Below, piece after piece: positions 11,701 through 31,384 of a stretch of 64,000 nt of DNA (the first letter of the stretch is position 1; every line of letters begins with the position of its first letter). The stretch is taken from assembly GCF_023516575.1 (NCBI RefSeq), contig NZ_JAMGBE010000003.1, positions 124,001 through 188,000 of the forward strand, given 5' to 3'. Made by a program: the position numbers and the translations under genes. Under the pieces are notes generated by a model. It was not told where the DNA came from. It did not search any database and worked only from the letters and a program-made list of their open reading frames with translations. The DNA is from Sphingomonas hankyongi. Its GTDB lineage: Bacteria; Pseudomonadota; Alphaproteobacteria; Sphingomonadales; Sphingomonadaceae.

Positions 11701-12948
11701 ATCGACGGCCTGACGTACAACGCGTCCGAAGCCGCTGAGGGATTGGAGTGTATCTACGATCCTGGATTGACGGGAGGGATTGCGGACCTGTTCGCGGATT
11801 TGTTCCTGATCGACGATGCGGCGGACTATAATGTGGCTCTGAACATGCTGGCGGGATCGAGCTACGCCGATTACCTGCAGTCGTTCCCGTCGCTGGGCGT
11901 GCGCTACAACGACATCCTCGACAAGGCGACCGCGTGCGAGGTTCCGACGCTTGCGGGCTCGGTGCTGGAATGCCGCGCTTCGGCTCCGCTGCACATGTGG
12001 GGCGAGCTCGACTTCCAGAGCCGTAGGGGCGACGGCGACAGCGAGGCGGGATCGTATCGCGCCAAGCGCACGACCGGGGTGATCGGCCTCGACGCCAGCG
12101 TCGGCGGCTCGGCGATCCTGGGGATGAGCGTCGGGTTCGTGAACAACCATGTGAACGAGCATCGCTTCAACGACGATATCGACGCCGACGGCTTCCAGGT
12201 CGGCGCCTATGGCGTCTACGACCCGGGGGCGTTTTACGTGAAGGCGCTGACCACCTACAGCTGGTACGACGGGGATTCGAAGCGCGACATCGACTTCACC
12301 CCGTTTGGCGGGACGTTCGGCGGCACCACGCGCGGCGATCCCGACGTCAAGATGTGGACCTTCGGCCTGCATGGCGGAGCGCGGCTCCCGCTTGGCGAGA
12401 ACTCGGTGGCGACGCCTTATCTCAACCTCGACTATGTCCATGCCGGCATCGACGAGTTCATCGAGAGCGGGCTCGACGGCGCCAACCTCCATGTCGACGA
12501 CAGCGGCATCAGCCGGACGTTCGTGACGTTGGGCGCAAAATGGGCGGGCCAGCTCGGCGGCGTAGTGCCGGAAGTGAACCTTGGCTACCGCCATCGCTTC
12601 GGCAACAGCCGGGCGCGGGTGACCGAGGCGTTCATGTGCCAGACCGACACCTGTCCGTTCGACATCGTGTCGGCGGCCGAGAAGCGCGGCACCTTCCTGG
12701 TCGGGGCGAGCCTCGGCGGCAAGATGGGCCCGGTCGATCTGAGGCTCGGCTACGACGGCGAGTTCAACGGCGACGTCCACAGCCATGCGTTCAACTTGAA
12801 GGCCGTGCTGCCGCTCGGCGGGCACAAGCAGGAAGCTGCTCCGCCTCCGCCGCCTCCGCCGCCGCCACCGCCTCCGGTCGTCGAGCAGCCCGCTCCACCG
12901 CCACCGCCACCGCCGCCGCCCGTCGAACGCGGCGAAAGGGGAGAGTGA
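5746..12948 (+). CDS. Giant repeat-rich autotransporter (type V secretion)
   Basis: The 2400-residue protein has a long signal peptide ending near AEALA (about residue 45). An Ala/Asn/Gly-rich passenger follows, made of divergent units of roughly 55-60 residues. Each unit has an N-S/N-G-T/D/S-I turn, an alternating hydrophobic strand (for example IxVxAxAxA), an A-x-A stretch and often a Q-x-A. This pattern suggests a beta-helix. A linker with acidic and Pro residues lies near 1815, and Cys pairs near 2065-2080 precede the beta-barrel (about 2080-2360, from HMWGELDFQSR). Unusually, a polyproline tail with two runs of more than eight Pro follows the barrel. It is divergent from the fecI operon. 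Adhesion or biofilm function is only inferred. Confidence 0.9.
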   Translation: MRAPLLASLRLTNGKKGLARGRLLAASASVLALGVLSPAEALAASEPGVRQEDTGTIAINLYEVDSSAPAQHFGATVIDDNPGGLAAATAYVLCAGTATCSSPGAIEQSAIGSQSASNLIAIGGSQTIHAEAHAEGNTATAVGFIDLAVGQLAVAPELATNEISIGGLLDIDAAADAQGDSGPAIAVAAVGTGIWQVATAGSAEGTASNQMGNTGAVTIAADAHAESDGGYATAAAFIELGVYQQARGVDLAANSFTNEGDFTVGAYASAVAGAGDALATASAVGIVQLASARTQSIENATLEYGTLVGASSDNPAGVAQSTITNNGAFTVDVAAHADAGGHAYATAALTGIVQLAGGNEALVSLANNGTIDFAGSAVAHGAGIVRGDVRMAGIVQVATAIAASTLETIHPNGTATFQVSTVPVGEAVASFANSGDIFVGAEVHVAADALSSAYATDALGYGLVTAVNQTAAGADASAHLDNDGSIIVSALVDAESDGAARAIALASGIDQVASAVGAHGTAIYTYSTTIPAYVTGGPEAVGKASAELANSGTLSIFANAHAAGEESALAGATAVGVNQVAAGTSANAQLTNDGDISVIGKAHAEATGVAGALAGAVGLTQLASGTAQAGVAMDNEGSILVGASAIANGGLAVANATALGLLQRVTGLATASAGFVNTGSVEVMAIAKAEGTSSAAAVIHADGLRQLVAGSNASAQFTNEGDFEVGAQVHAVADTSAIAGATVFEGVSQYASGGTTGAGHLSLDNQGTIAVGILAEATAGDHAYATGWALGGVLQTVHGNNGGSIAFDNSGAIEIVSVANADAMDGQETDIAFANAFAVGNFARISQFDPGTGTGTGTYTTFDIHLAANPGDAVIDMSNSGTIHVDAAAHASADGNAYAFGSAVYGMVAAATLPADGDAGVSLANSGDIRLAGNATAVGGHAATAAAQAVGGLLGIASAGGNGDADVAVENSGAILIHADAHAEASTNAFAVALGLTAVWQVANANAGDASVSLTNSGTIDLIAEAAATALVAQATAQAGNGSIFFGALFQSAFAVSGDANAFFDNQGDISIFADASVHGSVIAYANAYGGPGIMQRVVGIEGTAELKNSGSLSIVANALATSTNSAIANASDLIGMFAAATGSDHGIASLDNSGSVTVAAIAEANGPTWATADASVGRALLVAARANSGDSVGELTNSGEVTVGASALASGEFAAATANLEYVVVDQATAVGGDANAIFDNSGEITILANGVAGTSTENGYGTALAYATIFNAIGQHASGIAFTSSGFHPGNVSADLNNDGTIEISAHAAGEGEVAGNASVILSGGIVQDLHMNQFGSSYGTATDVLGSATFINGGDVTLVADAEAAGSSAVAVANVVAGISQLADISYGNGAAGITNDGSIAIHAGAEASGGELFSRGNAVVYGAFFQSVDAATGSANISFENSGEFEVTAGAKASGEQIVVAFAQALAGNQEALAGEDDLAVASFDNSGDFLVHAGAQATVSPPEGATAFTFANAAAQASGLYQLSNHGSVAFTNSGTFDIAAGAQSKGPQADGFAMALGVNQGVSGQDGAISFDNEGKFNVKAGFKGEGETGTGFVVAVGYRASGESLSVDADNGGEMNIVATADAADGASAGAVGMAIQAAVATSAPGTALLSGTLDNSGDLAVLASAIGGVMMTGTGTTAHEVPGSNATATGVSLMSGVNTVTLSNSGAINVDAVTGHGGNANAYGIRVIGNGTGSPSSPDDVFTFNNSGDLIVRVSSDEGETWRRGLAIDASGAPNKSVINLLGGGTIYGNIDINDGDEIVISEGETSLDGTINPDLLPPEDEEEAAAALAPEQLQGSLTVEDEATLFLRNSKYSNPTAYDGPSYVFVDDLTVEEGGTIAFELAPEGPGAQPLGSYSQIFADQADIQGTIEARLTSENGLFDDMTFEDIIDANTLTGFDEDRCVIGGAHAGSLFLDIACAADDDANIDVEVTRVAFNAIDGLTYNASEAAEGLECIYDPGLTGGIADLFADLFLIDDAADYNVALNMLAGSSYADYLQSFPSLGVRYNDILDKATACEVPTLAGSVLECRASAPLHMWGELDFQSRRGDGDSEAGSYRAKRTTGVIGLDASVGGSAILGMSVGFVNNHVNEHRFNDDIDADGFQVGAYGVYDPGAFYVKALTTYSWYDGDSKRDIDFTPFGGTFGGTTRGDPDVKMWTFGLHGGARLPLGENSVATPYLNLDYVHAGIDEFIESGLDGANLHVDDSGISRTFVTLGAKWAGQLGGVVPEVNLGYRHRFGNSRARVTEAFMCQTDTCPFDIVSAAEKRGTFLVGASLGGKMGPVDLRLGYDGEFNGDVHSHAFNLKAVLPLGGHKQEAAPPPPPPPPPPPPVVEQPAPPPPPPPPPVERGERGE

Positions 12949-15366
12949 TCAGGGGCGGGTTTCTACGTCGACGCGGATGATCGTTCCGTGACCGAAGCCG
13001 CGCGCCGCGGCCGCGAGATCTGATGGGCTGACTTGATCGAGCTCGCGAACGAGTTGGTCATGCGGCCGTAAGCCGCCGGTCTCGACGAATTGTTGGGCAA
13101 GCTTGGCTGCCAGCTCTTCGTTGCTCTGGGAGGCTGTCAGGTCGCGGCCGAGCAGGTGGTTGCGCGCGGCCCTGGCCTCTGCCGGGCTTGGCGGGCTGCT
13201 GACGAGTGCGGCGAGTTGAGCTCGGAGTTCGGCTTCCATGGCATCGGCTTTGCCCGGATCGACCCCGGTGGAGATCGTGACCCAGGACCGTCGCCCGTCT
13301 GTCCGTACTTGGCTGTATATATGATAGACGATGCCCTTGTCGCCGATCGCGGAGCGCCCGAGCCGTCCGGAATAATCATGTGTCAGGACATAGAGCAGCA
13401 TGCGCCATGCAAAGGCGTCGCGACTGGCCGGCGGAGGCCCTTCGACAACGTAGCCTATCGCTCCCTGTGAAAGGGGTCTGGAAATCCGCTCGCTAACGAC
13501 GCTGAGTCCGTTTGAGCGCGTCGGTGTCGGCGATGCCATTGGCAACTTGGCGGGCCGCGCCTGACCCAGCTGCTTTTCGAGCATGTCCAAGGCCGCGCTG
13601 GAAGGGAAGTTGCCGCTAACGATAACTGCCAACGGCATTGGCGCCTTGCGTGGCTGACTATCCATCTGAGCGGCCATAAGCTGTTCGAGCCGAGTAGCGG
13701 GATCCTCGCTGGGTGGCTCAGCGATCCTGGGTCCAGTCCGCGCCGCCGCCACCGATTGCGCGACAAGATTCGTCAAATCGTTCGGCCGCCCCGAACGAAC
13801 GACCGCGTCAAGGCCAGCCAATTGCTCGGGGTGGGCACCCCCTTCAACTGGGCCGGAGAGCAGCAATTCGACGGCGGCGGTGTCCGAAAGAGGATTGAAC
13901 TGGACGATTGCCGGGAGCCCACCCGTTAGTCGGCGAAGCTGCGGTTCGCTGGCGACGACCGTGGGAGCAACGGTACCGGTACGATCGCCCATTGAGCGAG
14001 GGGTTGCGCGCGGGACAGTCCCAGACGGAGGGGCGCCCGGTATCATCCAGCCGGTCGTGAGCCGTTGCGGAACGAGGTAAGCCTGAGCGACGCGACGGAC
14101 ATCGGCCGTCGTCACTGCGCTAATCCGCGCAGGCAGGTCGAGGAGCACATCGAGGGCGCCAATACCTTCGAAGAAAGCAAGCTGGTGCGCAGCATCCTCA
14201 GTCGTGAGAACATCCTCCGCGATCGCGCGAATCACCGAAGCTTTCGCCTCGTTCAGCCGTGATTGCGCGACGGGGCGATCGCGAAGGACTGCGATTCGGC
14301 TTTCGATCAATCGCTCAGTCTCGGCTTGTTCCGCCTTGGCGCCGATCGATCCGCTGACGGTGAAGAGGAAAGAGTCGCGCGTGGGCGGCAGCCATGTCGC
14401 TATGTCCTCGGTGACGCCGAACAGCAGCGAACCTTTTGTTGCCGCAGTGCCCGTCCAGTCGCTTTGCCGAAGGTTCAGCCCAGATCCTCCGGCAAGGATC
14501 TCCTGGAGCAGGAGGAGCGGAACGAAATCCGGACTGGAGGCCGCCGGCGATGGATAGGCGAGCTGGAAAAAGCGCCGGTCGACCGGACCGAGCATTTCCG
14601 TCCGCCGTTCCCCGCGTTGCGACGGCTCGATGGTAAGGGTCGGCGGTGCGACTGGCCGGGATGGGACATCGGCGAAGCTCTTGGCGATCAATGCCTTCGC
14701 TTCTGCCGACTGGAAGTCCCCCACGACTGCCAATACCGCGTTCGCAGGCGCATAATGGCTTGAATAATAGGCGCGCGCGTCGTCGATGGTCAGCCGCTCG
14801 ACGTCGCTGACGTAGCCAGCCATCGGACTCCCGTAAGGATGCGCCTGGAGCGCGGTGCGCGTAACCGTTTCCAGCAAAACGGACGCGGGATCGTTCTCGT
14901 AGCTGTGCAACTCCGTGATGACCGCGCCCTTTTCGGCCTGGATAGCGGCGGGATCGATGACCGTCCGAGCCATGCGATCAGCTTCAATCCGGAGGAGAAG
15001 GCCAAGATCTGCCTTCGGCATGGTCGAGAAATAGGTCGTCTGGTCCATCGCCGTATAGCCGTGCCACTCGCCACCGGCGTCGTAGATGAGTTCGGTCGCC
15101 TGAGCGTTTGGGAAGTTCTTGCTTCCGCGGAAAGCGAGATGCTCAAGGAAATGGGCGAGGCCGGTCTTGCCCGTCGTCTCAGCCGCCGACCCGCTTTTGT
15201 ACAACATTTGCACACTGACGACCGGAAAACTGTGATCTTCCAAGACGATGACCGTCAGTCCGTTCGGCAGATGGCTGACATCAGCTCGTGCCAGATCCAG
15301 TTCCGCGGAAGCCGGTGCGGAAGCGACCAGTGCGATCGCTGCCAGGATTATCTGCGCTCTTGTCAT
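12949..15366 (-). CDS. M16 family zinc metalloprotease (insulinase/pitrilysin type)
   Basis: This 805-residue protein has a signal peptide (ALVASAPASA, cleavage near residue 21), so it is likely periplasmic. The inverted zinc motif HFLEH is at residues 72-76, and the distal Glu is in the EKGAVITELHSYEND stretch near 145-160. The C-terminal half carries a second, inactive M16 fold, so one chain forms the clam-shell. It is convergent with the autotransporter (adjacent stop codons), which allows the idea that it trims passenger fragments, but this is speculation. It is divergent from the aminotransferase, with only 43 bases between starts. Confidence 0.93.
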   Translation of the reverse strand: MTRAQIILAAIALVASAPASAELDLARADVSHLPNGLTVIVLEDHSFPVVSVQMLYKSGSAAETTGKTGLAHFLEHLAFRGSKNFPNAQATELIYDAGGEWHGYTAMDQTTYFSTMPKADLGLLLRIEADRMARTVIDPAAIQAEKGAVITELHSYENDPASVLLETVTRTALQAHPYGSPMAGYVSDVERLTIDDARAYYSSHYAPANAVLAVVGDFQSAEAKALIAKSFADVPSRPVAPPTLTIEPSQRGERRTEMLGPVDRRFFQLAYPSPAASSPDFVPLLLLQEILAGGSGLNLRQSDWTGTAATKGSLLFGVTEDIATWLPPTRDSFLFTVSGSIGAKAEQAETERLIESRIAVLRDRPVAQSRLNEAKASVIRAIAEDVLTTEDAAHQLAFFEGIGALDVLLDLPARISAVTTADVRRVAQAYLVPQRLTTGWMIPGAPPSGTVPRATPRSMGDRTGTVAPTVVASEPQLRRLTGGLPAIVQFNPLSDTAAVELLLSGPVEGGAHPEQLAGLDAVVRSGRPNDLTNLVAQSVAAARTGPRIAEPPSEDPATRLEQLMAAQMDSQPRKAPMPLAVIVSGNFPSSAALDMLEKQLGQARPAKLPMASPTPTRSNGLSVVSERISRPLSQGAIGYVVEGPPPASRDAFAWRMLLYVLTHDYSGRLGRSAIGDKGIVYHIYSQVRTDGRRSWVTISTGVDPGKADAMEAELRAQLAALVSSPPSPAEARAARNHLLGRDLTASQSNEELAAKLAQQFVETGGLRPHDQLVRELDQVSPSDLAAAARGFGHGTIIRVDVETRP

Positions 15367-15409: not shown

Positions 15410-16741
15410 ATGACTGCTGGGCACGTCTTCCATCGCTCAACTTCGGCGATCCAGCCGGTGGCGACCCGAGGCGAAGGCATCTACCTCTTCGACAGCAGCG
15501 GGCGAAGGTACATCGATGCCTGCGGAGGCGCGGCGGTTTCCTGCCTTGGGCACGGAAACCGGGCGGTGATTGCCGCGGTTACCGAACAGGTTGAGCGACT
15601 CGAATATATCCACACCGGCTTCTTCACGACGGAGGCCTCCGAGGAGCTTGCTGCTCGGATCGCTGGAATGTCCCCGGGCTCGCTGGATCGCGTCTGGTTC
15701 ACCGGTAGCGGGTCCGAAGCCATCGAGGCCGCGCTGAAATTGGCGCGGCAATATCATCTCGAACGCGACGATAGCGGCAGGCGTCATGTGATCGCGCGGC
15801 GGCTAAGCTATCACGGCAACACTCTCGGAGCGCTCGCTGCTGGTGGAAGCGCCTGGCGACGCAAGCCCTACGATCCTTTGCTGATCGACGTTTCGCTCAT
15901 CGATCCGTGCTTCCATTACCGTTTCGCCGAATCCGGCGAGTCTCCCGAGGAATATGGCCGGAGGGCAGCGCATGCGCTTGAACAGGAAATCGTTCGCCTC
16001 GGCTCGGAGACGGTCATGGCCTTCGTCGCCGAGACGGTCGTGGGCGCGACCGCAGGCGCCGTGCCGCCGGTGCCCGGATATCTCAAGCGCGTTCGAGATA
16101 TTTGCGACCGCCACGGCGTCCTGATGATTCTGGACGAGGTGATGTGCGGTAGCGGGCGCACCGGCACATTCCTGTCGTGCGAGCAGGACGGAGTCGTTCC
16201 CGACATCGTGACGTTGGGTAAAGGGCTCGGTGCCGGATATCAGCCGATCGGTGCGGTGGTCTGCACGAGCCAGGTTTACGACGCCGTGGCGGAGGGTTCA
16301 GGCGCTCTCAAGCACGGCCAAACATACAACGCCCATCCGGTGGGCTGTGCCGCTGCGTTGGCAGTGCAGCAGGTGATTAGCGAAGGCGGGCTGCTCGATC
16401 GTGTCCAAGATACAGGACAGCAATTGGCTGAAAGATTAGTTGCGCGCTTCGGCGACCATCCGCACGTCGGGGACATACGCGGACGAGGTCTGCTTCAGGC
16501 TATGGAACTCGTTGAGGATCGGGCGTCGAAGGCCCCATTCGATTCGGCGCTCAAACTGCACCAGCGTGCCAAGGAGGACGCTTTTAGTCGCGGGTTATTG
16601 ATCTATCCGAGCGGCGGAACCGTCGATGGCAGATCAGGAGACCACATCCTCCTGGCTCCGCCCTACAATGTGACGGCTGACGAGCTCGGTGCGATCGTCG
16701 ACCTCCTTGCAGAGACGGTCGATGCGGTACTGCCGTCATGA
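15410..16741 (+). CDS. Class III PLP-dependent aminotransferase
   Basis: This 443-residue enzyme has fold type I features: GSGSEAIEAALKLAR (about 99-113), the Asp of LDEVMCGSGRTG (Asp242) that pairs with the pyridine nitrogen, and the Schiff-base lysine in TLGKGLGAGYQP (Lys271). Members transfer amino groups from omega-amino acids, beta-alanine, GABA, diamines or taurine to pyruvate or 2-oxoglutarate. The specificity here is open. It is first in a chain of six overlapping genes and shares ATGA with the next one, so it probably supplies a semialdehyde to the aldehyde dehydrogenase encoded downstream. Confidence 0.92.
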   Translation: MTAGHVFHRSTSAIQPVATRGEGIYLFDSSGRRYIDACGGAAVSCLGHGNRAVIAAVTEQVERLEYIHTGFFTTEASEELAARIAGMSPGSLDRVWFTGSGSEAIEAALKLARQYHLERDDSGRRHVIARRLSYHGNTLGALAAGGSAWRRKPYDPLLIDVSLIDPCFHYRFAESGESPEEYGRRAAHALEQEIVRLGSETVMAFVAETVVGATAGAVPPVPGYLKRVRDICDRHGVLMILDEVMCGSGRTGTFLSCEQDGVVPDIVTLGKGLGAGYQPIGAVVCTSQVYDAVAEGSGALKHGQTYNAHPVGCAAALAVQQVISEGGLLDRVQDTGQQLAERLVARFGDHPHVGDIRGRGLLQAMELVEDRASKAPFDSALKLHQRAKEDAFSRGLLIYPSGGTVDGRSGDHILLAPPYNVTADELGAIVDLLAETVDAVLPS

Positions 16742-18807
16742 CGCGTGATCCTCGTTACGACATCCTGTTCGAGCCAGTGCAGATCGGGCCGGTCACCGCT
16801 CGCAATCGCTTCTACCAAGTCCCGCATTGCACCGGCATCGGGTGGACCCAACCGGAGACGCTCGCACGGCTGCGCGGGATCAAAGCCGAGGGCGGCTGGG
16901 CGGTCGTGGCGACGGAAGAAACGGAGATTCACCCAACTGGCGATTGCGAGCCATTCCATGAGGGCCGCCTGTGGGACGATCGCGACGTTCCTGCCATGGC
17001 GCTGATGGCCGACGCGGTTCATGAGCATGGGGCATTGGCAGCGATCGAGATCATGCACCACGGCGCCTCCGCGGCGAACTGGGGCACCCGTCTTGCGCCG
17101 CTCGCGCCGTCTCATCGTCCGATCATCTATTACTCGCCGGTCCAAGCGCGAGCGATGGACAAGCAGGATATTCGCGACCTGCGGGGCTGGCACCGCGAAG
17201 CGGCAGTACGGTCGAAGAAGGCCGGCTTCGACATCGTCTACGTCTACGCGACCCACGACCTTTCGATCGCGCAGCATTTTCTTTCGCGGCGGAAGAACGA
17301 TCGCATCGACGAATATGGCGGAAGCCTGGAGAATCGCGTCCGCCTCCTGCGAGAGTTGATCGAGGATACGAAGGATGCAGTCGGCGACAAATGCGCCGTG
17401 GCCCTTCGTTTCTGCGGCGATGAACTGATCGGCGACGATGGGCTAACATACGACGGCGAGGCGCGGGACGTGGTCGAGATGCTCGCCGAGCTGCCGGATC
17501 TCTGGGACGTCAACATCTCAACGTGGCCGAACGACAGCCAGACATCGCGATTCGCAAAGGAAGGGTTCCAAGAGGAATATACGAGCTTCGTGAAGAAGCT
17601 CACGACCAAGCCGGTGGTGGGTGTCGGTCGGTTCACGTCTCCGGACACGATGGTGTCGCAGATCCGGCGCGGGCTAATGGATTTCATTGGAGCCGCGAGG
17701 CCTTCGATCGCCGACCCGTTCCTTCCGAAAAAGATCGAGGAAGGCCGCATCGACGACATTCGCGAATGCATCGGCTGCAATATGTGTGTGTCGAGCGACT
17801 ACACGTCTACCAACCTCCGCTGCACGCAGAACCCGACGATGGGAGAGGAGTGGCGGCGTGGGTGGCATCCAGAGATCATCCCGCCAAAGAGGTCGGAAGG
17901 GACCGTGCTTGTAGTCGGCGCAGGCCCGGCCGGGCTCGAAGCCGCGCTGGCCGCTGCGCGCCGCGGCTTCGATGTTCACCTCGCCGAAGCCGGATCCGAG
18001 CTGGGCGGGCGGGTGATTCGTGAAAGCAGGCTGCCGGGCCTTTCCGAGTGGGCGCGAGTTCGTGACTGGCGGGTCGGACAACTGGAGCGAATGGCGAACG
18101 TATCGATCTACCGCGACAGCGCGCTCGAGGCCGAGCACATATTGGAGTTTGGTGCCCGGCACGTAGCGATAGCGACAGGATCGACCTGGAGGCGTGATGG
18201 TGTCGGCCGCGACAGCGGCTTCGCCATCCCCGGCTTCGACGGTCCGTCAGTGTACACGCCCGACGACGTGATGACTGGCCGCGACCCCGAAGCTGGGCCA
18301 GTCATCATCTGGGACGACGATCATTACTATATGGGCGGCGTCCTCGCCGAGCTGTGCCGTTACGCCGGGCATGAAGTGGTCCTGGTCACGCCCGCGGCGA
18401 TGGTGTCGGCGTGGACCGTGAATACACTCGAGGCGCTGCCGATCGCCAAGCGCCTGGCGCGAATGGGCATCGAAGTCGTCCCCTATACAAGCGTCGTCGG
18501 TTTCGACGGCGCACAGGTTCGACTGCGGAGCGGCTTAACGGGTGAGGAGACGTCGCGCTCCGCCGGGGCGCTGGTCACCGTCACGGCCCGGCTCCCGCTG
18601 GACGATTTGCACGAACAGCTACGCGACCGGTGGGAAGGAGCGGGAATCGCTTCGATCGCCCGCATCGGAGACTGCTGGGCGCCCAGCACAATTCAGCAGG
18701 CCGTCTATTCGGGACACAAGTGGGCACGCGGTCTCGACGAGGAGCCGGAGCTGCTGATTCCGCGCGAGCTGCCATTCATTGAATCCGGAAGGGTGCAGCA
18801 GCGATGA
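16738..18807 (+). CDS. Trimethylamine dehydrogenase-like FMN/4Fe-4S oxidoreductase
   Basis: This 689-residue enzyme is of the old-yellow-enzyme superfamily, collinear with trimethylamine, dimethylamine and histamine dehydrogenases. The N-terminal TIM barrel carries NRFYQVPHC; Cys31 matches the residue that covalently holds FMN in trimethylamine dehydrogenase. VYATH keeps the active-site Tyr170 and His173. Cys344, 347, 350 and 362 would bind the 4Fe-4S cluster. The C-terminal half has an ADP-binding fold (VVGAGPAGLEAA). The substrate-bowl Tyr60 of the trimethylamine enzyme is replaced by Glu61, pointing to a different, perhaps more basic amine. ATGA overlaps link it to both neighbours. Confidence 0.9.
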   Translation: MTRDPRYDILFEPVQIGPVTARNRFYQVPHCTGIGWTQPETLARLRGIKAEGGWAVVATEETEIHPTGDCEPFHEGRLWDDRDVPAMALMADAVHEHGALAAIEIMHHGASAANWGTRLAPLAPSHRPIIYYSPVQARAMDKQDIRDLRGWHREAAVRSKKAGFDIVYVYATHDLSIAQHFLSRRKNDRIDEYGGSLENRVRLLRELIEDTKDAVGDKCAVALRFCGDELIGDDGLTYDGEARDVVEMLAELPDLWDVNISTWPNDSQTSRFAKEGFQEEYTSFVKKLTTKPVVGVGRFTSPDTMVSQIRRGLMDFIGAARPSIADPFLPKKIEEGRIDDIRECIGCNMCVSSDYTSTNLRCTQNPTMGEEWRRGWHPEIIPPKRSEGTVLVVGAGPAGLEAALAAARRGFDVHLAEAGSELGGRVIRESRLPGLSEWARVRDWRVGQLERMANVSIYRDSALEAEHILEFGARHVAIATGSTWRRDGVGRDSGFAIPGFDGPSVYTPDDVMTGRDPEAGPVIIWDDDHYYMGGVLAELCRYAGHEVVLVTPAAMVSAWTVNTLEALPIAKRLARMGIEVVPYTSVVGFDGAQVRLRSGLTGEETSRSAGALVTVTARLPLDDLHEQLRDRWEGAGIASIARIGDCWAPSTIQQAVYSGHKWARGLDEEPELLIPRELPFIESGRVQQR

Positions 18808-19994
18808 AAACTGTCGCGCTGGTCCTTCTCTTCCTGGCCACGACGCAGGCAGACGCACGGGCACGCGATCTCGGCATTCCATTCGAAGGGACGCCGGGCC
18901 CGCTGAATGCAATTACCGACGTTCCCGGCGTCGAGGTTGGTCAGAAGACGCTCATTTCCGGTGAAGGACCCCTCGCAGTGGGCAAAGGGCCGGTCCGATC
19001 CGGCGTCACAATCATTTTTCCCCGCGGTCACAAAAATTTGAAGCCGGTCTACGGCGGCTATTTCAACCTCAATGGTAACGGCGAGATGACGGGCCTCGCC
19101 TACATGCAGGATTTCGGGATTGTCAGCGGACCTATTGGCATCACTAGCAGCAATGCGATTGGCCATGTCTACGCCGGTATCCAGGAATGGGCCGTCGAGC
19201 ATGGTGGCGAGGCCGTTTACCCCGTAGTCGCCGAGACCTGGGACGGATGGCAGAGCGACATCAATGGTTTCCACGTTCGGCCGGAAACAGCGAAAGCGGC
19301 GCTCGACGCAGCACAGTCCGGGCCAGTGGAAGAAGGTATCGTCGGCGGCGGCACCGGCATGCATTGCTTCAGCTTCAAGGGCGGGATCGGCACCGCTTCC
19401 CGGGCGATCGAGGTCACCGGCAAATCTTATACGGTTGGCGTACTCGTCCAGTGCAATACTGGAGATCGCAAGGTTTTGAGGATCGCGGGCGTCCCGGTGG
19501 GAAGAGCTTTCGCCAGCAGCTGGTTGCCTTGTTACGATGCGAAACAGTCAAAGCCCGAACAGACGCCCAAATGCGGCGCGGGCGGCAAGGCGCTGCCCGA
19601 TCGAGGGTCGATCATCATCGTCGTCGGCACCAATACCCCGTTGTCGCCCGAACAGCTCAATCGTGTTGCGAAGCGCGCGGCGCTGGGTCTCGCTCGGCTC
19701 GGCTCTTATTCGGGAACCAGCTCGGGCGACCTCATCATGGCATTTTCGACCGTGCCGGACGCGGTGAACGGACCCGATCAGACGGCGCCTTCGCCGATCA
19801 CTCCCATTGCAGATACGGAAGTGAATGATGTGTTCGAGGCAACTGTCCAGGCCACAGAGGAAGCCGTCGTCAATGCCTTGGTCGCGGCTCACACTTCGAT
19901 TGGTGCGGATGGCTATACGATGTACGGGCTGCCGCACGACGAGCTTCGCGCGATTTTGAAGCGCTACAACCGGCTGGAGGGCGCCAGCAAATGA
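18804..19994 (+). CDS. P1 family (DmpA/BapA-like) aminopeptidase, exported
   Basis: This 396-residue N-terminal-nucleophile peptidase has a signal peptide (to about residue 20), so it is probably periplasmic. RARDLGIPFEGTPG and NAITDVPGVEVG match the start of BapA-type beta-aminopeptidases. The self-cleavage site is predicted between Gly268 and Ser269 (RGSIIIVVGTNTPL), which frees Ser269 as nucleophile and yields two chains. GGGTGM (181-186) and the NxxVxxxGQ-like regions are typical of the family. Known members release N-terminal D-Ala, Gly or beta-amino acids from small peptides. Its place between amine-metabolising genes suggests it supplies the amino acid substrate. Confidence 0.92.
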   Translation: MKTVALVLLFLATTQADARARDLGIPFEGTPGPLNAITDVPGVEVGQKTLISGEGPLAVGKGPVRSGVTIIFPRGHKNLKPVYGGYFNLNGNGEMTGLAYMQDFGIVSGPIGITSSNAIGHVYAGIQEWAVEHGGEAVYPVVAETWDGWQSDINGFHVRPETAKAALDAAQSGPVEEGIVGGGTGMHCFSFKGGIGTASRAIEVTGKSYTVGVLVQCNTGDRKVLRIAGVPVGRAFASSWLPCYDAKQSKPEQTPKCGAGGKALPDRGSIIIVVGTNTPLSPEQLNRVAKRAALGLARLGSYSGTSSGDLIMAFSTVPDAVNGPDQTAPSPITPIADTEVNDVFEATVQATEEAVVNALVAAHTSIGADGYTMYGLPHDELRAILKRYNRLEGASK

Positions 19995-21565
19995 CCGACC
20001 TGCCGCGTGTCACTTACTCGAACACCGGTGAGGACTTTTCAGCTGTTCATGCGCATCTCGACGAGATCATTACGGCGGTCGAGTCGCGGCTGCTCGGCAA
20101 GAGCCGACCTGCTTTGATCAGTGGGCGCGACCGCCACGAAGGCCCAGTCGTGGAAGCACGCAGCCCCATCGACCGGGGCGTTGTCCTGGGAGAGTTCCCG
20201 CAAGCCGACACGTCGATCGTGGACGCCGCCGTCGAAGCAGCGCGCAAGGCTTTTCCTGCCTGGCGTGACATGGGCTGGGAGCGCCGTGTCGCATTGCTCC
20301 GCGCGGGGGTTGACGCGCTCGAATCCTCCAAGTGGGATATCTCCATCGCTTGTCTCATCGAGGTCGGTAAGTCGCGGCTCGAAGCGGTTGGCGAGGTCGA
20401 GGAAGCCATCGATCTCGTTCGCCATTACTGCGACGAGATGGAGCGTTCCGACGGCTTCCGCGAGGAAATGCCAGGCGCATCCGCCGCCGAGAAGTGCAGC
20501 GTCGTCCTGAGACCCTACGGCGTTTTCGGAGTGATCGCGCCGTTCAATTTTCCTGTCGCGCTTTCGTTGGGGATGATGTCAGCGGCGCTCGTCGCCGGGA
20601 ATACGGTGGTGTTCAAGCCGAGCGAATCCGCTGGTCTGACGGGGCGGCTCGCAGTTGAAGCATTGGTTGCCGGCGGACTGCCTGACGGCGTCATCAATCT
20701 CATTCATGGTTCGGATCAGGCGGGCAAGGCCTTGGCCAGCCACACGGATGTCGATGGCATCGCCTTCACCGGCTCGAACGCCGTGGGAATGACCATATTT
20801 CGTCATGCTGCCGCGTCGACTGCAATGCGTCCTGTGCTTGCCGAAATGGGGGGCAAGAATCCCGCCTTTGTGACGGCAAGGGCTGACTTCGACACCGCAG
20901 CCTCGGGCGTCGCGCGATCCGCGTTCGGTCTTTCCGGGCAGAAGTGCAGCGCCGCCTCCAAAGCCTATGTGGCGAGAGAGGCGCTGGACCCGTTTCTGGA
21001 GGCCTTAGCCTCCGCCACGGACAAGTTGGTGGTCGGCGACCCGCGTCGACGCGAAGTCTTCATGGGTCCGGTTATCGACGCCGCCGCTCTCGGCAGATTC
21101 AAAGCCGCTGCGGAGGAGGCGGCGAATGATGGCTCGATCTTTCGAGGCGGCACGACGCTCGCCGGAGGCATTTTCGATCGGGGCCCGTACGTTTCGCCGA
21201 CCATCGTAACGGGCTTGGCGGCGGATCACCGCCTGAACCGCGAGGAGATATTCCTTCCGTTCATCAGCATCCTGCCGTTCGACGATCTGGATGAGGCGAT
21301 AGGCGATGCGAACCGGAGCGCGTTCGGGCTGACCGCGGGTATCTACACGCAGGACCAGGCCGAGCTGGATCGCTTCCTAAATACGATAGAGGCCGGGGTA
21401 CTCTACGCCAATCGGGCCAGCGGTGCGACGACCGGTGCGTGGCCCGGCTTCCAGACTTTTTGCGGGTGGAAAGGGTCTGGAACGTCGGGGAAGGGCGGCC
21501 TTGGAAGCTGGTACGTCCCGCAGTTCATGCGGGAGCAGAGCCGCACACTCTTCGAGCCCGCGTGA
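19991..21565 (+). CDS. NAD(P)-dependent aldehyde dehydrogenase
   Basis: This 524-residue ALDH superfamily enzyme has Asn186 in PFNFP, the cofactor-site GSNAVG (261-266), general base Glu285 in LAEMGGKNP, and nucleophile Cys319 in GQKCSAASKAYV. The GQKCSA context resembles pyrroline-5-carboxylate/glutamate-semialdehyde dehydrogenases more than betaine-aldehyde enzymes. It likely oxidises the semialdehyde produced by the aminotransferase or amine dehydrogenase of the same operon. ATGA overlaps the peptidase stop, and its own stop overlaps the GTG start of the CoA-transferase gene. Confidence 0.92.
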   Translation: MTDLPRVTYSNTGEDFSAVHAHLDEIITAVESRLLGKSRPALISGRDRHEGPVVEARSPIDRGVVLGEFPQADTSIVDAAVEAARKAFPAWRDMGWERRVALLRAGVDALESSKWDISIACLIEVGKSRLEAVGEVEEAIDLVRHYCDEMERSDGFREEMPGASAAEKCSVVLRPYGVFGVIAPFNFPVALSLGMMSAALVAGNTVVFKPSESAGLTGRLAVEALVAGGLPDGVINLIHGSDQAGKALASHTDVDGIAFTGSNAVGMTIFRHAAASTAMRPVLAEMGGKNPAFVTARADFDTAASGVARSAFGLSGQKCSAASKAYVAREALDPFLEALASATDKLVVGDPRRREVFMGPVIDAAALGRFKAAAEEAANDGSIFRGGTTLAGGIFDRGPYVSPTIVTGLAADHRLNREEIFLPFISILPFDDLDEAIGDANRSAFGLTAGIYTQDQAELDRFLNTIEAGVLYANRASGATTGAWPGFQTFCGWKGSGTSGKGGLGSWYVPQFMREQSRTLFEPA

Positions 21566-22266
21566 ACAAGATCTTTGAGTCTCCGCGCGCGGCGCTCGAG
21601 GGTCTTCTCCGCGATGGAATGACAATCATGTCGGGCGGCTTTGGACTCGTTGGGAATCCAGAAAGCCTCATTCCGGAGATCAAAGCTTCGCGCGTGAAAG
21701 ATTTAACTGTGATTTCGAACAACGCTGGGGCCGACGGCTTCGGCCTCTGGCAGCTGCTGGAGACGCGCCAGATACGAAAGATGATCTCGTCCTATATCGG
21801 CGAAAACAGGCTGTTCGAGCAGCAGTATCTGGCGGGCGAGCTGGAGCTGGAGCTAAATCCGCAGGGCACCCTTGCCGAACGGATAAGGGCGGGTGGGGCA
21901 GGCATTCCCGCTTTCTACACTGCGACCGGGGTCGGGACCGTGGTTGCCGAGGGTAAGCCGCAGGAAGAATTCGACGGCAAGCCTTATGTCCGTGAGCGTT
22001 GGCTCCGCGCCGACCTGGCGATCATCAAGGCGTGGCGCGCGGACCCCGAGGGTAACCTGCAGTTCCGCAAGACGGCTCGGAATTTCAATCCTATAATGGC
22101 AGCTGCTAGCGAGATGACGGTCGTCGAGGTCGAAGAGATCGTCGCGGTGGGAGAGATCCCGACGGACTGTGTTCACACGCCCGGCATTTACGTCGATCGC
22201 ATCGTCAGGAGCACGATAAACGAGAAACGCGTGGAATTCCGCACGGTACGTGAGCGGCAGATATGA
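21562..22266 (+). CDS. CoA-transferase subunit A (3-oxoacid CoA-transferase type)
   Basis: The preferred start is the GTG at 21562, which overlaps the aldehyde dehydrogenase stop; the longer open frame runs back into that gene. The resulting 234 residues begin MNKIFESPRAALEGLL and carry the subunit A landmarks GGFGLVGNPESLI, VISNNAGADGFGL and ARNFNPIMA. The partner B subunit, which holds the catalytic Glu, is not next to it and was not seen elsewhere in the window. The enzyme would move CoA from succinyl-CoA (or similar) to an acid made upstream. The lone A subunit must either pair with a distant B or act in another way. Confidence 0.9.
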   Translation: MNKIFESPRAALEGLLRDGMTIMSGGFGLVGNPESLIPEIKASRVKDLTVISNNAGADGFGLWQLLETRQIRKMISSYIGENRLFEQQYLAGELELELNPQGTLAERIRAGGAGIPAFYTATGVGTVVAEGKPQEEFDGKPYVRERWLRADLAIIKAWRADPEGNLQFRKTARNFNPIMAAASEMTVVEVEEIVAVGEIPTDCVHTPGIYVDRIVRSTINEKRVEFRTVRERQI

Positions 22267-24794
22267 TCGTACGGCGCTGTGCCTTATTCATCCTCTTCTC
22301 GCTGGCGGCCAACTCAGCCCAAGCCGGTCGCGAGCCGGTGCTCAAGCAGGTCGACCTGCCTCACACATATTACTGGCGCGAGCTTTACATCCCTCAGCTA
22401 ACGACAGGCCCATCGAGCCTTGCCTTCACACCGGACGGCAAGGCGCTGATCTACAGCATGGGCGGTTCGCTCTGGCGGCAGGCAATTGGCTCAGACGAGG
22501 CGATAGAGCTGACGCATTCCACCGGCGCCTACGATTACCAGCCCGATGTCGCCCCCGACGGACAGACAGTCGTGTTCAGCCGATACGCAGGCGACGCAAT
22601 TGAGCTTTGGCGTCTCGATCTGAAAACGGGCCGCGAGCAGGCCCTGACGACAGGCGGTGCCGTGAATGTCGAACCCAGGGTCTCCCCAGACGGGAAGCGC
22701 ATCGTATGGGTTTCGACGCAGGGCAGCGGCCACTTCAATCTCTTCATCGCTAATTTAGGCGCCGCAGGACTCCAAAATGCGCAACCGCTAATCGCAGAGC
22801 GCCAGAGCAAGATTTCGCGCTATTATTATTCGAGCTGGGACCATTCGCTCAATCCATCCTGGTCTCCGGACGGTAAGCGCGTTCTCTACGTCTCGAATGC
22901 GGAAATCGCCTGGGGAACTGGCGACATCTGGTCGGTCGCGGCGGACGATCCCAACGACCGCCACAGGGTGTTGAGCGAGGAGACGAGCTGGGATGCCCGG
23001 CCTGAAACTTCGCCGGACGGGAAGCTGGTGCTTTTCACCAGCTACCACGGGCGACAATGGCGGCAGCTATGGGTCACGACGCCGGAGGGATCTGCCCCGC
23101 TTCCACTGACCTTCGGGGAGTTCGATAGATCGAACGCGCGATGGTCCCCTGATGGGAAGAGGATTGCCTACGTTAGCAACGAGCGCGGGAATACGAGCCT
23201 CTTCGTACGCGACGTGGCGGGCGGGGCAACGACAGCGGTCACTGCCAAATCACGGCGCTATCGAAGCGCCGAAGGGCATTTGACGCTCGACATTCGCGAT
23301 GAGCAAGGACGCGGCGTCCCAGCGCGCGTGGTAGTGCTTGCGAGTGACGGGAGGGCGGCAGCTCCGGAAGACTCCTGGATACACGCGGACGATGGATTTG
23401 ATCGCGCCATCCAGAAAAGCGAAACTCACTATTTCCACTGTCCATCGGTCTGCACGCTTGACGCACCAGCAGGCGATACGACCATCTGGGTCCAGCGCGG
23501 TTTTCGGTATCTTCCATGGCGACAGAAAATCAGCCTTGCCTCAGGGTCAGAGCGCAACATAGCGGTGAACTTGCAGCGGAACGATTTGCCAGCCGACTTT
23601 GGTTCGTGGCGAGGCGCGGATCTCCACGTTCACATGAATTACGGCGGCCACTACCGGAATACGCCGGAGAACCTGGCAAGACAGGCGCGGGCCGAGGACC
23701 TGGACGCCGTCTACAATCTCATCGTCAACAAAGAGGAGCGGGTTCCGGACGTCGATTATTTCCGTGCTGATCCCGACCCCGCGAGTGGCGACGGCGTGCT
23801 GATCATGCACAGCCAGGAATTCCACACGAGCTACTGGGGCCACCTTGGCCTTCTCAACCTATCGGATCATCTGCTGACGCCGGATTTCTCCGCGTATCAG
23901 CACACCGCGCTCGCGAGCCCGTGGCCGCACAATGGCGTCGTTGCGGACCTCGCGCATGCTCAAGGCGCTCTGGTCGGCTACGTGCACCCCTTCGACTGGG
24001 ATATCGATCCACCCAAGGAGAAGTCGCTTACCAACGAGCTTCCTGCCGACGTCGCCAACGGGAAGGTCGATTACATGGAAATCGTCGGCTTTTCGGATCA
24101 CAAATCGACCGCGCAGGTCTGGTATCGCCTGCTCAACCTCGGCTTCCGAATCCCCGCCGGAGCGGGGACTGACGCGATGGCGAATTACGCATCGCTGCGT
24201 GGTCCCGTCGGGATGAATCGGGTTTTCCTAGAGACAGGCGGTGACCGCAGTCCTGCTGCGCTGAAGGCCGCTTTGAAGCAGGGCCGTACCTTTGCCAGCA
24301 ATGGTCCGCTTCTAGGGTTTGAGCTGGACGGAAAGCGCCCGGGCGACACGGTAACAAAGCCGACCTCCCGAACGCTGCCTTATCGTGTGGCGATGCGGTC
24401 GCCGGTTGCCCTGGACCATCTGGAGCTCGTGCAGAACGGCAAGGTCCTCAAAACATTCAGCCTGACCGGTGACCGGCGTCGGCTGGATGCCTCGGGCGAG
24501 ATCCCAAAAGATGTCGGTGGCTGGGTGTTGCTCCGGGCCTGGAATGATGAAGCCGACCCCGAAGTCCTCGACATATATCCCTACGCGACGACCAGTCCGA
24601 TCTATCTCGCTGTCGGTGGCGCACCACCTGCTACCAATGACGCAGCCTACTTCGTGACATGGCTCGATCGCGTGATCGACGATGCGGCAAACCGGTCAGA
24701 CTACCGCACTGCGGATGAGCGTGAAGCGACTCTGGCTTATCTCCGCAAGGCCCGGGATTATTACGCGAGGCGGGCCGGCCAACGATCTCAATAA
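22263..24794 (+). CDS. Secreted TolB-propeller plus PHP (CehA/McbA-like) metallohydrolase
   Basis: This 843-residue protein has a signal peptide (LFILFSLAANSAQA). Residues about 50-330 hold PD40/TolB-type propeller repeats (FTPDGKALIYS, SPDGKRIVWVS, SWSPDGKRVLYVSN). A central linker domain follows, then a PHP-type metallohydrolase from about 445 (ADLHVHMNYGGHY, GVLIMHSQEFHT, VGYVHPFDWD, GAGTDAMAN) whose His/Asp residues would bind metals. CehA/McbA relatives hydrolyse carbamates, amides or esters. It is last in the six-gene chain (ATGA overlap with the CoA-transferase) and convergent with cyoD three bases away. The substrate is unknown. Confidence 0.85.
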   Translation: MIVRRCALFILFSLAANSAQAGREPVLKQVDLPHTYYWRELYIPQLTTGPSSLAFTPDGKALIYSMGGSLWRQAIGSDEAIELTHSTGAYDYQPDVAPDGQTVVFSRYAGDAIELWRLDLKTGREQALTTGGAVNVEPRVSPDGKRIVWVSTQGSGHFNLFIANLGAAGLQNAQPLIAERQSKISRYYYSSWDHSLNPSWSPDGKRVLYVSNAEIAWGTGDIWSVAADDPNDRHRVLSEETSWDARPETSPDGKLVLFTSYHGRQWRQLWVTTPEGSAPLPLTFGEFDRSNARWSPDGKRIAYVSNERGNTSLFVRDVAGGATTAVTAKSRRYRSAEGHLTLDIRDEQGRGVPARVVVLASDGRAAAPEDSWIHADDGFDRAIQKSETHYFHCPSVCTLDAPAGDTTIWVQRGFRYLPWRQKISLASGSERNIAVNLQRNDLPADFGSWRGADLHVHMNYGGHYRNTPENLARQARAEDLDAVYNLIVNKEERVPDVDYFRADPDPASGDGVLIMHSQEFHTSYWGHLGLLNLSDHLLTPDFSAYQHTALASPWPHNGVVADLAHAQGALVGYVHPFDWDIDPPKEKSLTNELPADVANGKVDYMEIVGFSDHKSTAQVWYRLLNLGFRIPAGAGTDAMANYASLRGPVGMNRVFLETGGDRSPAALKAALKQGRTFASNGPLLGFELDGKRPGDTVTKPTSRTLPYRVAMRSPVALDHLELVQNGKVLKTFSLTGDRRRLDASGEIPKDVGGWVLLRAWNDEADPEVLDIYPYATTSPIYLAVGGAPPATNDAAYFVTWLDRVIDDAANRSDYRTADEREATLAYLRKARDYYARRAGQRSQ

Positions 24795-30133: not shown

Positions 30134-31384
30134 ATGGTCGCGAAGGTCGGGCTTACGGACGCGAAGATTAAAGGGTTCAAGCCGCCGCCGACGGGCCAGA
30201 TCGAATATCTCGACGCGCTCGTCCCAGGCCTCAGGCTGAGGGTTGGGTCGAGCGGTGCAAAGACATTCATCCTGCGAAAGCGGGTAGGGGGTCGTGCCCG
30301 CAACCTCACCTTGGATCGGTATAACGAGCGTCGCTTCACGCTGGCGGATGCCCGCAAAAAGGCGAGGGCGCTGATCAGCGACATCGAGGCCGGCGAGGAT
30401 CCTCAGCCGAGGAGACAACGCGGCCGAGCTGGCCAGACCAGCGGCACGGTCAAGGCGCTGTTCGAAGATTACAAGGTCGCTAAGAAGGCCTTGCGCAGCA
30501 TCTCGGAAGTGACGCGCATCTTCGACAAGTACGTGATTCCCGAAATCGGTGGTCGTCTCGCGGATAGCATCACGAGGGCGGATATCACGCGATTGATCGA
30601 CGGCATCGCCGCGCCGACCATGGCTCGGGCCGTTGGAGCGCAGCTCAGCGCCTTCTACTCCTGGGCAATGCCGCGGCTCGATCGCCTCGAGGCAAACCCA
30701 TGCAGAGACGCTTGGAAGCCGCCCAAACCGCCCTCCCGAGATCGAGTGCTATCTGAGGAGGAAATCAAGGCGCTCTGGAAGTCTTCGCTTGAGGAGCCAG
30801 CGCCCTTTGGGCCGGGGATCCGGCTCCTACTTCTGACGCTTCAGAGGCGGGACGAGGTGTTCAGCGCGGACGTCGCGGAATTCGACCTGAAGGGCGCTAG
30901 CTGGACGATCCCTGCTGCCCGCGCAAAAAACGGCGTGGCACACATCGTCCCTCTCTCGGCTGCAGCCGTGGCAGAGTTAGAACCGCTCATCGTCGATCGT
31001 AAAGAGGGCAAGCTCTTCCCCGCACGCGGCAGAGCCCGAAATGGAGCGAGCGGCTTCTCGAAATCATGGGCGCGCGTACGCAAAGCCGTACAGAAGGACC
31101 TCAAGCGCCCGGTCGAGCGGTTCACTATGCACGATCTTCGCAGAACCGGCGCTACCGGCCTCCAGCGCCTCGGTATTCGGCTTGAGGTGACTGAAGCGAT
31201 CTTGAACCACGTCAGCGGAACCCGCGGCGGTATCGTGGGCGTCTATCAACGGCATCACTTTTCCGAAGAAAAATGTGATGCGCTCAAGGCGTGGGAGGCG
31301 GAACTAAAACAAGTTATTTCAGCTAATTACTCGGACGCATCGCCGCGGGTCGAGTCGGGGAATCCGAGTCAACCCGCGGAATAA
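30134..31384 (+). CDS. P4-type tyrosine-recombinase integrase
   Basis: This complete 416-residue integrase has an N-terminal DUF4102-type arm-binding domain (residues 5-90: LTDAKIKGFKPPPTGQ, GLRLRVGSSGAKTF), a core-binding helical domain (about 105-200) and a catalytic domain. Catalytic residues are visible: Arg in LLLLTLQRRDEV (238/239), HDLRRT (His333, Arg336), LNH (His359) and the nucleophile Tyr371 in GVYQRH. It would insert or excise the element at the tRNA-Lys remnant just upstream. All key residues are intact, so it may still be active. Confidence 0.94.
   Translation: MVAKVGLTDAKIKGFKPPPTGQIEYLDALVPGLRLRVGSSGAKTFILRKRVGGRARNLTLDRYNERRFTLADARKKARALISDIEAGEDPQPRRQRGRAGQTSGTVKALFEDYKVAKKALRSISEVTRIFDKYVIPEIGGRLADSITRADITRLIDGIAAPTMARAVGAQLSAFYSWAMPRLDRLEANPCRDAWKPPKPPSRDRVLSEEEIKALWKSSLEEPAPFGPGIRLLLLTLQRRDEVFSADVAEFDLKGASWTIPAARAKNGVAHIVPLSAAAVAELEPLIVDRKEGKLFPARGRARNGASGFSKSWARVRKAVQKDLKRPVERFTMHDLRRTGATGLQRLGIRLEVTEAILNHVSGTRGGIVGVYQRHHFSEEKCDALKAWEAELKQVISANYSDASPRVESGNPSQPAE

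Follow-up and report, generated by a model that had tools for sequence, protein, structure and literature searches.

A six-gene operon of Sphingomonas hankyongi as a candidate route from a beta-amino acid to 3-oxoadipate

Which metabolic route could a peptidase of the BapA/DmpA type serve? These beta-aminopeptidases are used in synthesis, and to our knowledge their natural metabolic place is unsettled; we know of no described pathway for BapA, and none was named among the titles and abstract openings listed. We address this question for six genes on the plus strand of Sphingomonas hankyongi, which form an operon at positions 15410-24794 of the analysed stretch of 64,000 nt (hereafter the window, whose numbering is used throughout). 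An earlier note on this DNA had read them as a degradation route for a beta-aminopeptide or an amine. Our analysis suggests that the operon probably turns a beta-amino acid into 3-oxoadipate. As substrate we propose, tentatively, beta-lysine (3,6-diaminohexanoate) or an N6-modified form of it, bound in a peptide or amide. The hypothesis of a route from beta-lysine to 3-oxoadipate was recorded before the findings in Lysobacterales, in Microvirga and on KamA that are described below.

Gene products of the operon

The operon comprises the following genes, given with the scores or E-values of their assignments:

15410-16741, + strand: class III aminotransferase of the PRK07483 group (NF005685, 698.6 bits against a cut-off of 485)
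16738-18807, + strand: histamine-dehydrogenase-like FMN/4Fe-4S amine dehydrogenase (PDB 3k30, E 7e-239)
18804-19994, + strand: peptidase S58 of the BapA/DmpA type, probably exported (PF03576; BapA 3n2w, E 1e-92)
19991-21565, + strand: aldehyde dehydrogenase resembling pyrroline-5-carboxylate dehydrogenase (P5CDH), with a longer anchor loop, GATTGAWPG (best solved matches P5CDH and PutA)
21562-22266, + strand: 3-oxoacid CoA-transferase subunit A of the PcaI/ScoA type (TIGR02429, 262.8 bits against a cut-off of 128.5)
22263-24794, + strand: TolB-like propeller plus CehA/McbA PHP metallohydrolase, probably exported (NF038032, 239.1 bits against a cut-off of 80)

That the six genes are coupled by an overlap at every junction was borne out: stop and start codons share four bases at all five, as ATGA four times and as GTGA once. 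The CoA-transferase A gene starts at GTG 21562, and the longer version in the list of open reading frames, with a start at 21439, is unlikely.

The S58 domain scored 333.5 bits against PF03576 (cut-off 23.9) and BapA was the closest solved structure, so that the BapA/DmpA assignment of the earlier note holds. In BapA we take Asn207, Ser250, Ser288 and Glu290 to be the catalytic residues; the alignment placed the self-cleavage site of the window peptidase at Gly268-Ser269, together with Asn218 and Ser307, and showed Asp309 in the place of Glu290. This peptidase and the PHP protein, a proposed accessory hydrolase, both have hydrophobic N termini that, judged by eye, resemble signal peptides, and both are probably exported. 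The window peptidase thus shares its family, the Gly-Ser self-cleavage site and its likely export with BapA and DmpA, whereas its apparent tie to a dedicated intracellular pathway sets it apart. At S58 loci of the family that lack the flavoenzyme, no homologue of the flavoenzyme, aminotransferase, aldehyde dehydrogenase or CehA was found within five genes (12 readable loci of 15).

The second gene product had been described as similar to trimethylamine dehydrogenase (TMADH). This family assignment stands, but by its structure matches the enzyme is nearer to histamine dehydrogenase (3k30, as above; 6de6, E 3e-228) than to TMADH (E 3e-151). The aromatic bowl of TMADH, which we take to be Tyr60, Trp264 and Trp355, is not preserved: Tyr60 is replaced by Glu61 and no residue aligns with Trp355, whose position lies between Ser353 and Asp354, while Trp264 is kept as W263. 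The flavin-linking Cys31 and the cluster cysteines Cys344, Cys347, Cys350 and Cys362 are invariant in seven homologues. A histamine site has been proposed to consist of Gln65, Ile74, Phe77, Glu79, Asn115, Tyr181, Trp267 and Asp358 (PMC10180351); the aligned residues of the window enzyme are, in the same order, E61, C70, F73, E75, S111, L175, W263 and D354, four of the eight being identical. Histamine dehydrogenases are reported to oxidise putrescine, agmatine and other amines as well (PMC10180351), which supports a role in beta-lysine oxidation, as putrescine has the same distance between its two amines as beta-lysine has between its 3- and 6-amines. The flavoenzyme family, the flavin cysteine, the 4Fe-4S cysteines and presumably the C-N oxidation to an aldehyde are shared with histamine dehydrogenase and with 6-hydroxypseudooxynicotine oxidase (Pno), a related enzyme described as cleaving a methylamine to a semialdehyde in nicotine breakdown (PMC5500553).

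Against the NCBIfam models shown (the best 25 of 44), the aldehyde dehydrogenase scored below cut-off, including those for P5CDH (369 against 648 and 345 against 660 bits). It keeps the catalytic motif GQKCSA and aligns with P5CDH and PutA, and compared with the P5CDH chains shown its anchor loop has three extra residues. The loop motif GATTGAWPG is present in all six copies aligned, in 17 of 17 homologues from operons and clusters besides the window's own, and in five of eight plasmid homologues (the five bacterial ones, and none of the three haloarchaeal ones). The proposed aldehyde, 3-amino-6-oxohexanoate, would cyclise to 1-pyrroline-5-acetate, a homologue of pyrroline-5-carboxylate. A P5CDH-like family fits our proposal, because this aldehyde would form a five-membered pyrroline.

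Aminotransferases of the PRK07483-type subfamily were found in 101 of 385 genomes of the class (E up to 1e-115). We examined 60 of their neighbourhoods, mostly the better-scoring ones of those listed. TAXI-type TRAP transporter genes occurred in 33 and RpiR-type regulators in 24 of them, counts that stand without a control set and rely on queries taken mostly from members of the set, which match by construction. Several loci (L163, L168, L225 and others) carry an alphaproteobacterial unit of a PRK07483 aminotransferase, a beta-keto-acid cleavage enzyme and a TAXI-TRAP transporter, often with an RpiR-type regulator, which probably serves the catabolism of another beta-amino acid. Beta-keto-acid cleavage enzymes are reported to act on beta-keto acids (PMC6365646). 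If a beta-keto acid is made by an aminotransferase, it derives from a beta-amino acid. A tree built from 66 aminotransferases placed the four copies from operons in a single clade (support 1.0) but did not settle where that clade belongs among the rest. At one locus, L169, a CoA-transferase A gene was seen near the aminotransferase, with a further CoA-transferase gene running the other way; this single case was not used.

The operon's CoA-transferase A is 52% identical to a Microvirga PcaI that adjoins PcaJ and PcaF. Subunit B was not found in the operon; the genome (99.96% complete) has one TIGR02428 match, on another contig and beside an A subunit of its own; this distant B would pair with the operon's subunit A. 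The window genome also encodes PcaF (TIGR02430, 702 against 597 bits; G000:C1:830935-832128).

Gene content, order, conservation, families and the linkage of the aldehyde dehydrogenase to CoA-transferase, PcaF and PcaR elsewhere were computed, and the reactions are all inferred. In the proposed route, the exported S58 peptidase, together with the PHP hydrolase, would free an N-terminal beta-amino acid outside the cytoplasm. The flavoenzyme would oxidise the 6-amine of beta-lysine to give 3-amino-6-oxohexanoate, which would cyclise to 1-pyrroline-5-acetate, and the P5CDH-like enzyme would convert 3-amino-6-oxohexanoate to 3-aminoadipate. The class III aminotransferase, judged by its family's partner enzyme, would then yield 3-oxoadipate, and the CoA-transferase would activate it.

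Related operons and clusters

The flavoenzyme was found in 7 of 298 genomes of the family sample (E up to 1e-100) and in 10 of 71 genomes of the genus (E up to 1e-150), namely the window, eight relatives with the window type of operon, and G238, whose version differs. Three relatives carry all six genes intact and in the same order (L010, L279, L282). Two more (L283 and L284, in genomes G1031 and G990) have the six genes in order with frames split in several of them, by either sequencing error or decay. L281 misses CoA-transferase A alone. In L250 the aminotransferase, flavoenzyme and aldehyde dehydrogenase are present, without S58 between the latter two and with CehA displaced, and the contig ends in the aldehyde dehydrogenase; in L280 the contig stops after the second gene. 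Sphingomonas formosensis, which belongs to another genus, has the first four genes in order (L018). The CehA/PHP protein is 71-78% identical to the genus copies in unbroken stretches. Comparison of the window with four relatives gave dN/dS ratios of 0.05-0.18 across the six genes, which are rough because dS was 1.1-2.6; CoA-transferase A, at 0.05-0.09 in three relatives, is among the most constrained. All six genes look to be under purifying selection. Given this low dN/dS and the finding of an identical gene order elsewhere in the genus, the operon is more than a chance arrangement. The earlier note had named a lack of conservation in relatives as grounds for refutation. This did not come true: the gene order is kept by some relatives within the genus and Lysobacterales show the functional set again, although the distribution is patchy.

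We searched eight genomes that carry related flavoenzyme loci with the window aldehyde dehydrogenase. For G238 and four genomes of Lysobacterales, the best homologue (43-45% identity) lay within about 3 kb upstream of the flavoenzyme locus, with E-values of about 1e-120 to 1e-125 against 1e-61 to 1e-64 for the next best. The copy belonging to L017 itself is 75% identical to that of the window. The Lysobacterales cluster encodes a TonB receptor, a TPR-sulfotransferase, an M20 peptidase, PcaF, PcaR, a first aminotransferase and the aldehyde dehydrogenase; CoA-transferase A and B (A being most like glutaconate CoA-transferase), a second aminotransferase, CehA, an S9 peptidase and S58; and a Rieske oxygenase of the carnitine/betaine type, an Xaa-Pro-type amidohydrolase, an amino-acid permease and the histamine-dehydrogenase-like enzyme. 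The cluster aldehyde dehydrogenase occurs in 12 of 299 Lysobacterales genomes (E up to 1e-130), three of which, including that of the query, were known beforehand; the twelfth lies on a short contig that cannot be judged beyond four genes. In the 11 genomes with long contigs, the stretches fetched showed it clustered with PcaR, with CoA-transferase A and B and with two aminotransferases in all 11, with PcaF and with S58 in 10 each, with the flavoenzyme in nine and with CehA in seven. NCBIfam cut-offs were passed by PcaF (634.6 against 597) and PcaR (308.8 against 284.75) of Pseudoxanthomonas yeongjuensis. G238, although it belongs to the window's own genus, carries this Lysobacterales version of the cluster. 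Its PcaR is likewise over the curated cut-off; PcaF, M20, Rieske and amidohydrolase genes were not found in the stretches of G238 examined.

The S58 peptidase, flavoenzyme, aldehyde dehydrogenase and CehA protein of the window are homologous to those of Lysobacterales (66-68% identity to two copies for CehA), whereas the aminotransferase and CoA-transferase are non-orthologous, so that conservation extends beyond linkage to the functions themselves. Some genes are about 80% identical across classes, which suggests that cluster genes moved between classes by transfer.

Ten plasmid records contained the aldehyde dehydrogenase at E up to 1e-100, and eight of these were opened. On plasmids of Rhizobium, Caballeronia, Mesorhizobium and Rhodococcus its neighbours include an FAD oxidoreductase and an aminotransferase of class III. 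An unannotated Microvirga plasmid encodes the aldehyde dehydrogenase, an aminotransferase like glutamate-1-semialdehyde aminomutase (GSAM), an FAD oxidase, an amino-acid ABC transporter, PcaR, PcaI, PcaJ and PcaF. GSAM is also the reported closest match of a Mesorhizobium beta-transaminase (PMC3281772). All four Pca proteins of Microvirga were over their cut-offs, and a neighbour was most like electron-transfer flavoprotein beta (below cut-off). Ring-cleavage genes were identified neither in the Lysobacterales clusters nor in the Microvirga stretch, and aromatic catabolism was rejected for both.

In Rhizobium sp. CB3171, a 54% identical aldehyde dehydrogenase lies 2.5 kb from a 2,3-aminomutase of the KamA family (TIGR00238, 233 against 199.2), a family that makes beta-amino acids. 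A 58% identical aminotransferase of S. medicae lies about 5 kb from KamA, with transposase-like open reading frames, recognised by eye, in between.

The aldehyde dehydrogenase group does not change from one of these clusters to the next. The aminotransferase is of the PRK07483, PRK06062-like or GSAM-like kind, the flavoenzyme is histamine-dehydrogenase-like or an FAD oxidase, and the CoA-transferase is of the PcaIJ or glutaconate type. That non-orthologous aminotransferases, flavoenzymes and CoA-transferases are swapped around a constant aldehyde dehydrogenase argues that these functions are needed together.

Other arrangements of the flavoenzyme were seen as well. Rhodobacterales loci L048, L055 and L073 have two or three tandem histamine-dehydrogenase-like genes beside genes for an ABC transporter and a TetR-type regulator; in L048 the transporter genes scan as the Pot (polyamine) type and the regulator as BetI-like. 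At L012, L050, L042 and L062 a smaller unit encodes a Rieske oxygenase, a permease and a histamine-dehydrogenase-like enzyme, joined in three of the four by a TonB receptor and a TPR-sulfotransferase; neither S58 nor the cluster aminotransferases were found in the stretch examined.

Beside the operon, on its upstream side, lies one further gene of possible relevance:

12949-15366, - strand: M16 peptidase, divergent from the operon, a possible functional partner (PF00675/PF05193)

Only 43 bases separate its start codon from that of the operon. The M16 peptidase is in the matching position in four of the eight relatives (L250, L281, L283, L284) and was not found in the stretches of L010, L279, L280 and L282. 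Its divergent orientation, its short distance and its retained place in half of the relatives suggest a promoter region shared with the operon. Also beside the operon, positions 5746-12948 (+ strand) encode a repetitive protein of 2400 amino acids with an autotransporter beta-domain (PF03797), of which a relative with about 39% identity lies near the other cluster version of G238 (L013, 12841-19425). About 5 kb past the end of the operon lies a gene for a tyrosine integrase (30134-31384, + strand), a possible mark of an insertion region.

Substrate and rival explanations

The most likely end point, 3-oxoadipate, suggests as starting compound a 3-amino acid of six carbons that carries a terminal amine, i.e. 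a compound of the beta-lysine type. We favour beta-lysine because it is the simplest nameable compound that must both lose a 3-amine and have its 6-amine oxidised on the way to 3-oxoadipate, and the presence of peptidases suggests that it arrives as peptides or amides. Much of the route sketched earlier is supported, namely release of a beta-amino acid, transamination, amine oxidation, semialdehyde oxidation and CoA activation, while its end point is changed to 3-oxoadipate. The alternatives given there fared less well: the partner genes indicate a 3-oxo acid, for which reason catabolism of D-Ala or a generic small amine was rejected as the principal explanation, and beta-alanine leaves the PcaF, PcaR and CoA-transferase partners unexplained.

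Several observations weigh against a route from beta-lysine to 3-oxoadipate. The operon has CoA-transferase A without subunit B in cis. PcaF is available but does not follow the operon: it is nearly genus-wide, with 36 of 41 genomes of the genus over the cut-off, whereas the flavoenzyme occurs in only 10 of 71. Sphingomonas formosensis has the four-gene core without a CoA-transferase and without a PcaF over the cut-off (best 374.9). The window aminotransferase is non-orthologous to both Lysobacterales aminotransferases (about 33% identity), and two of the eight genomes searched, those of L050 and L034, lack a close aldehyde dehydrogenase. Among the plasmid homologues opened, PcaF accompanies only one of eight, and the three haloarchaeal ones showed no partner genes and lack the loop motif. 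The Mesorhizobium locus also contains a Rieske oxygenase and a gene of the mandelate racemase/muconate lactonizing family, so there may be an aromatic link. KamA was rejected as proof of beta-lysine and is taken as a hint, since the link was seen at one locus and a polyketide synthase neighbours the homologue of Rhizobium sp. BT03; moreover, the specificity of this KamA could be for lysine, arginine or glutamate. Four of the eight proposed histamine-site residues differ in the window flavoenzyme. Finally, this enzyme alone is not diagnostic, as most of its relatives lack S58 or CehA: among the best 80 of 586 loci in named genomes, S58 was present in five stretches and CehA in three, of which four and two, respectively, were from Lysobacterales.

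The same intermediates as from beta-lysine would arise from a cyclic substrate, pyrrolidine-2-acetate (beta-homoproline) or its N-methylated form, via 1-pyrroline-5-acetate and 3-amino-6-oxohexanoate to 3-oxoadipate. In Rhizobium CB3171 and Caballeronia, the FAD oxidoreductases that lie close to the aldehyde dehydrogenase are indeed most like the L-pipecolate oxidase AmaA, albeit at 116.6 and 148.5 bits with a cut-off of 600, and the Lysobacterales Rieske oxygenase is most like N-demethylases of the carnitine, glycine betaine and stachydrine type. However, the S58 aminopeptidase of the window and its flavoenzyme with retained acidic site residues suit a primary amine, and the window genome lacks a Rieske gene of that group (best 30% identity), which makes a cyclic substrate rather unlikely here. 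The closeness of the flavoenzyme to histamine dehydrogenase could instead point to a beta-alanyl amine such as carcinine (beta-alanyl-histamine). After its cleavage by the peptidase the aminotransferase would take beta-alanine, and the flavoenzyme and aldehyde dehydrogenase would make imidazole acetate from histamine. BapA and DmpA are reported to make L-carnosine and hence handle beta-alanyl peptides (PMC9570944), and in relatives the flavoenzyme stands beside permeases most like arginine/agmatine and histidine/histamine antiporters (below cut-offs). This explanation appears quite improbable, given that the aldehyde dehydrogenase is P5CDH-like, that no histamine-specific gene was identified among the cluster genes, and that CoA-transferase A and B, PcaF and PcaR, found in Lysobacterales with the same aldehyde dehydrogenase and S58, would go unexplained.

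General scavenging of common peptides together with ordinary amines (putrescine, agmatine) or omega-amino acids, involving no beta-amino acid, would agree with the Pot-type polyamine transporter genes beside the related Rhodobacterales flavoenzyme (L048) and with the several exported-type peptidases in the Lysobacterales clusters. Routes from putrescine or GABA need no 3-oxoadipate exit, however, and we regard scavenging as improbable. The S58 family also includes the nylon oligomer hydrolase NylC, and a nylon-like route would release 6-aminohexanoate, convert it to adipate and, after CoA activation, lead by beta-oxidation to 3-oxoadipyl-CoA. The aminotransferase, aldehyde dehydrogenase, CoA-transferase and thiolase would fit such a route, and the aldehyde dehydrogenase lies near a 3-hydroxyacyl-CoA dehydrogenase-family gene in Rhizobium CB3171 and about 3-10 kb from genes for an enoyl-CoA hydratase and an AMP-binding protein in Caballeronia. 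Yet such a route would have no use for the flavoenzyme, and the window peptidase has Gly-Ser at its cleavage site, like DmpA, instead of the Asn-Thr of NylC. Moreover, neither the genes identified in the Lysobacterales clusters nor the Microvirga stretch included an acyl-CoA dehydrogenase, hydratase or hydroxyacyl dehydrogenase; a nylon-like route is thus highly improbable.

Relation to known pathways and implications

The proposed route from beta-lysine resembles the beta-ketoadipate pathway in its 3-oxoadipate CoA-transferase and 3-oxoadipyl-CoA thiolase steps and in the PcaR of the Lysobacterales and Microvirga relatives. In contrast to that pathway, the clusters contain no identified ring-cleavage gene, 3-oxoadipate, otherwise familiar as an intermediate of aromatic breakdown, would come from an amino acid, and the window operon has subunit A only. 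A pseudomonad catabolises beta-lysine via N6-acetyl-beta-lysine transaminase (EC 2.6.1.65), with the 6-amine acetylated and cleavage leading to 4-acetamidobutyrate. There, too, a derivative of beta-lysine is turned into a 3-oxo acid by a beta-transaminase, whereas the operon would oxidise the 6-amine to a carboxylate, with 3-oxoadipate as product. Clostridial lysine fermentation, an anaerobic route through 3,5-diaminohexanoate with a 5,6-aminomutase and a 3-keto-5-aminohexanoate cleavage enzyme, shares the beta-lysine intermediate and a keto-acid cleavage enzyme family, but has neither a flavin amine dehydrogenase nor 3-oxoadipate. The proposed pathway was not described among the matches listed, which comprised titles and abstract openings (in two of the listings 15 of 159 and 15 of 137 matches), with subscription literature mostly outside.

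Taken together, we propose with some reserve that the operon belongs to a scattered, laterally moving module that converts peptide-bound beta-lysine, or its N6-methylated or cyclic relatives, to 3-oxoadipate. Natural sources of beta-lysine include streptothricin-type antibiotics, poly-beta-lysine and the modification of EF-P. In addition, N-epsilon-acetyl-beta-lysine is reported as a compatible solute (PMC1224877). According to a passage in a paper on adipic acid from lysine, no enzymes are known for the deamination of beta-lysine (PMC7241714); the operon supplies gene candidates for this reaction.

If the proposal is true, the module would open the beta-ketoadipate pathway to a nitrogen-rich, non-aromatic compound. 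It would be assembled around one conserved P5CDH-like enzyme from beta-transaminases of at least three exchangeable kinds, together with flavin amine oxidases and CoA-transferases of two kinds each. PcaF and PcaR genes outside aromatic clusters could then be re-read as possible amino-acid catabolism. By linking a BapA-type peptidase to an intracellular pathway with a specific product, the operon would also give the BapA-type peptidases a natural role.

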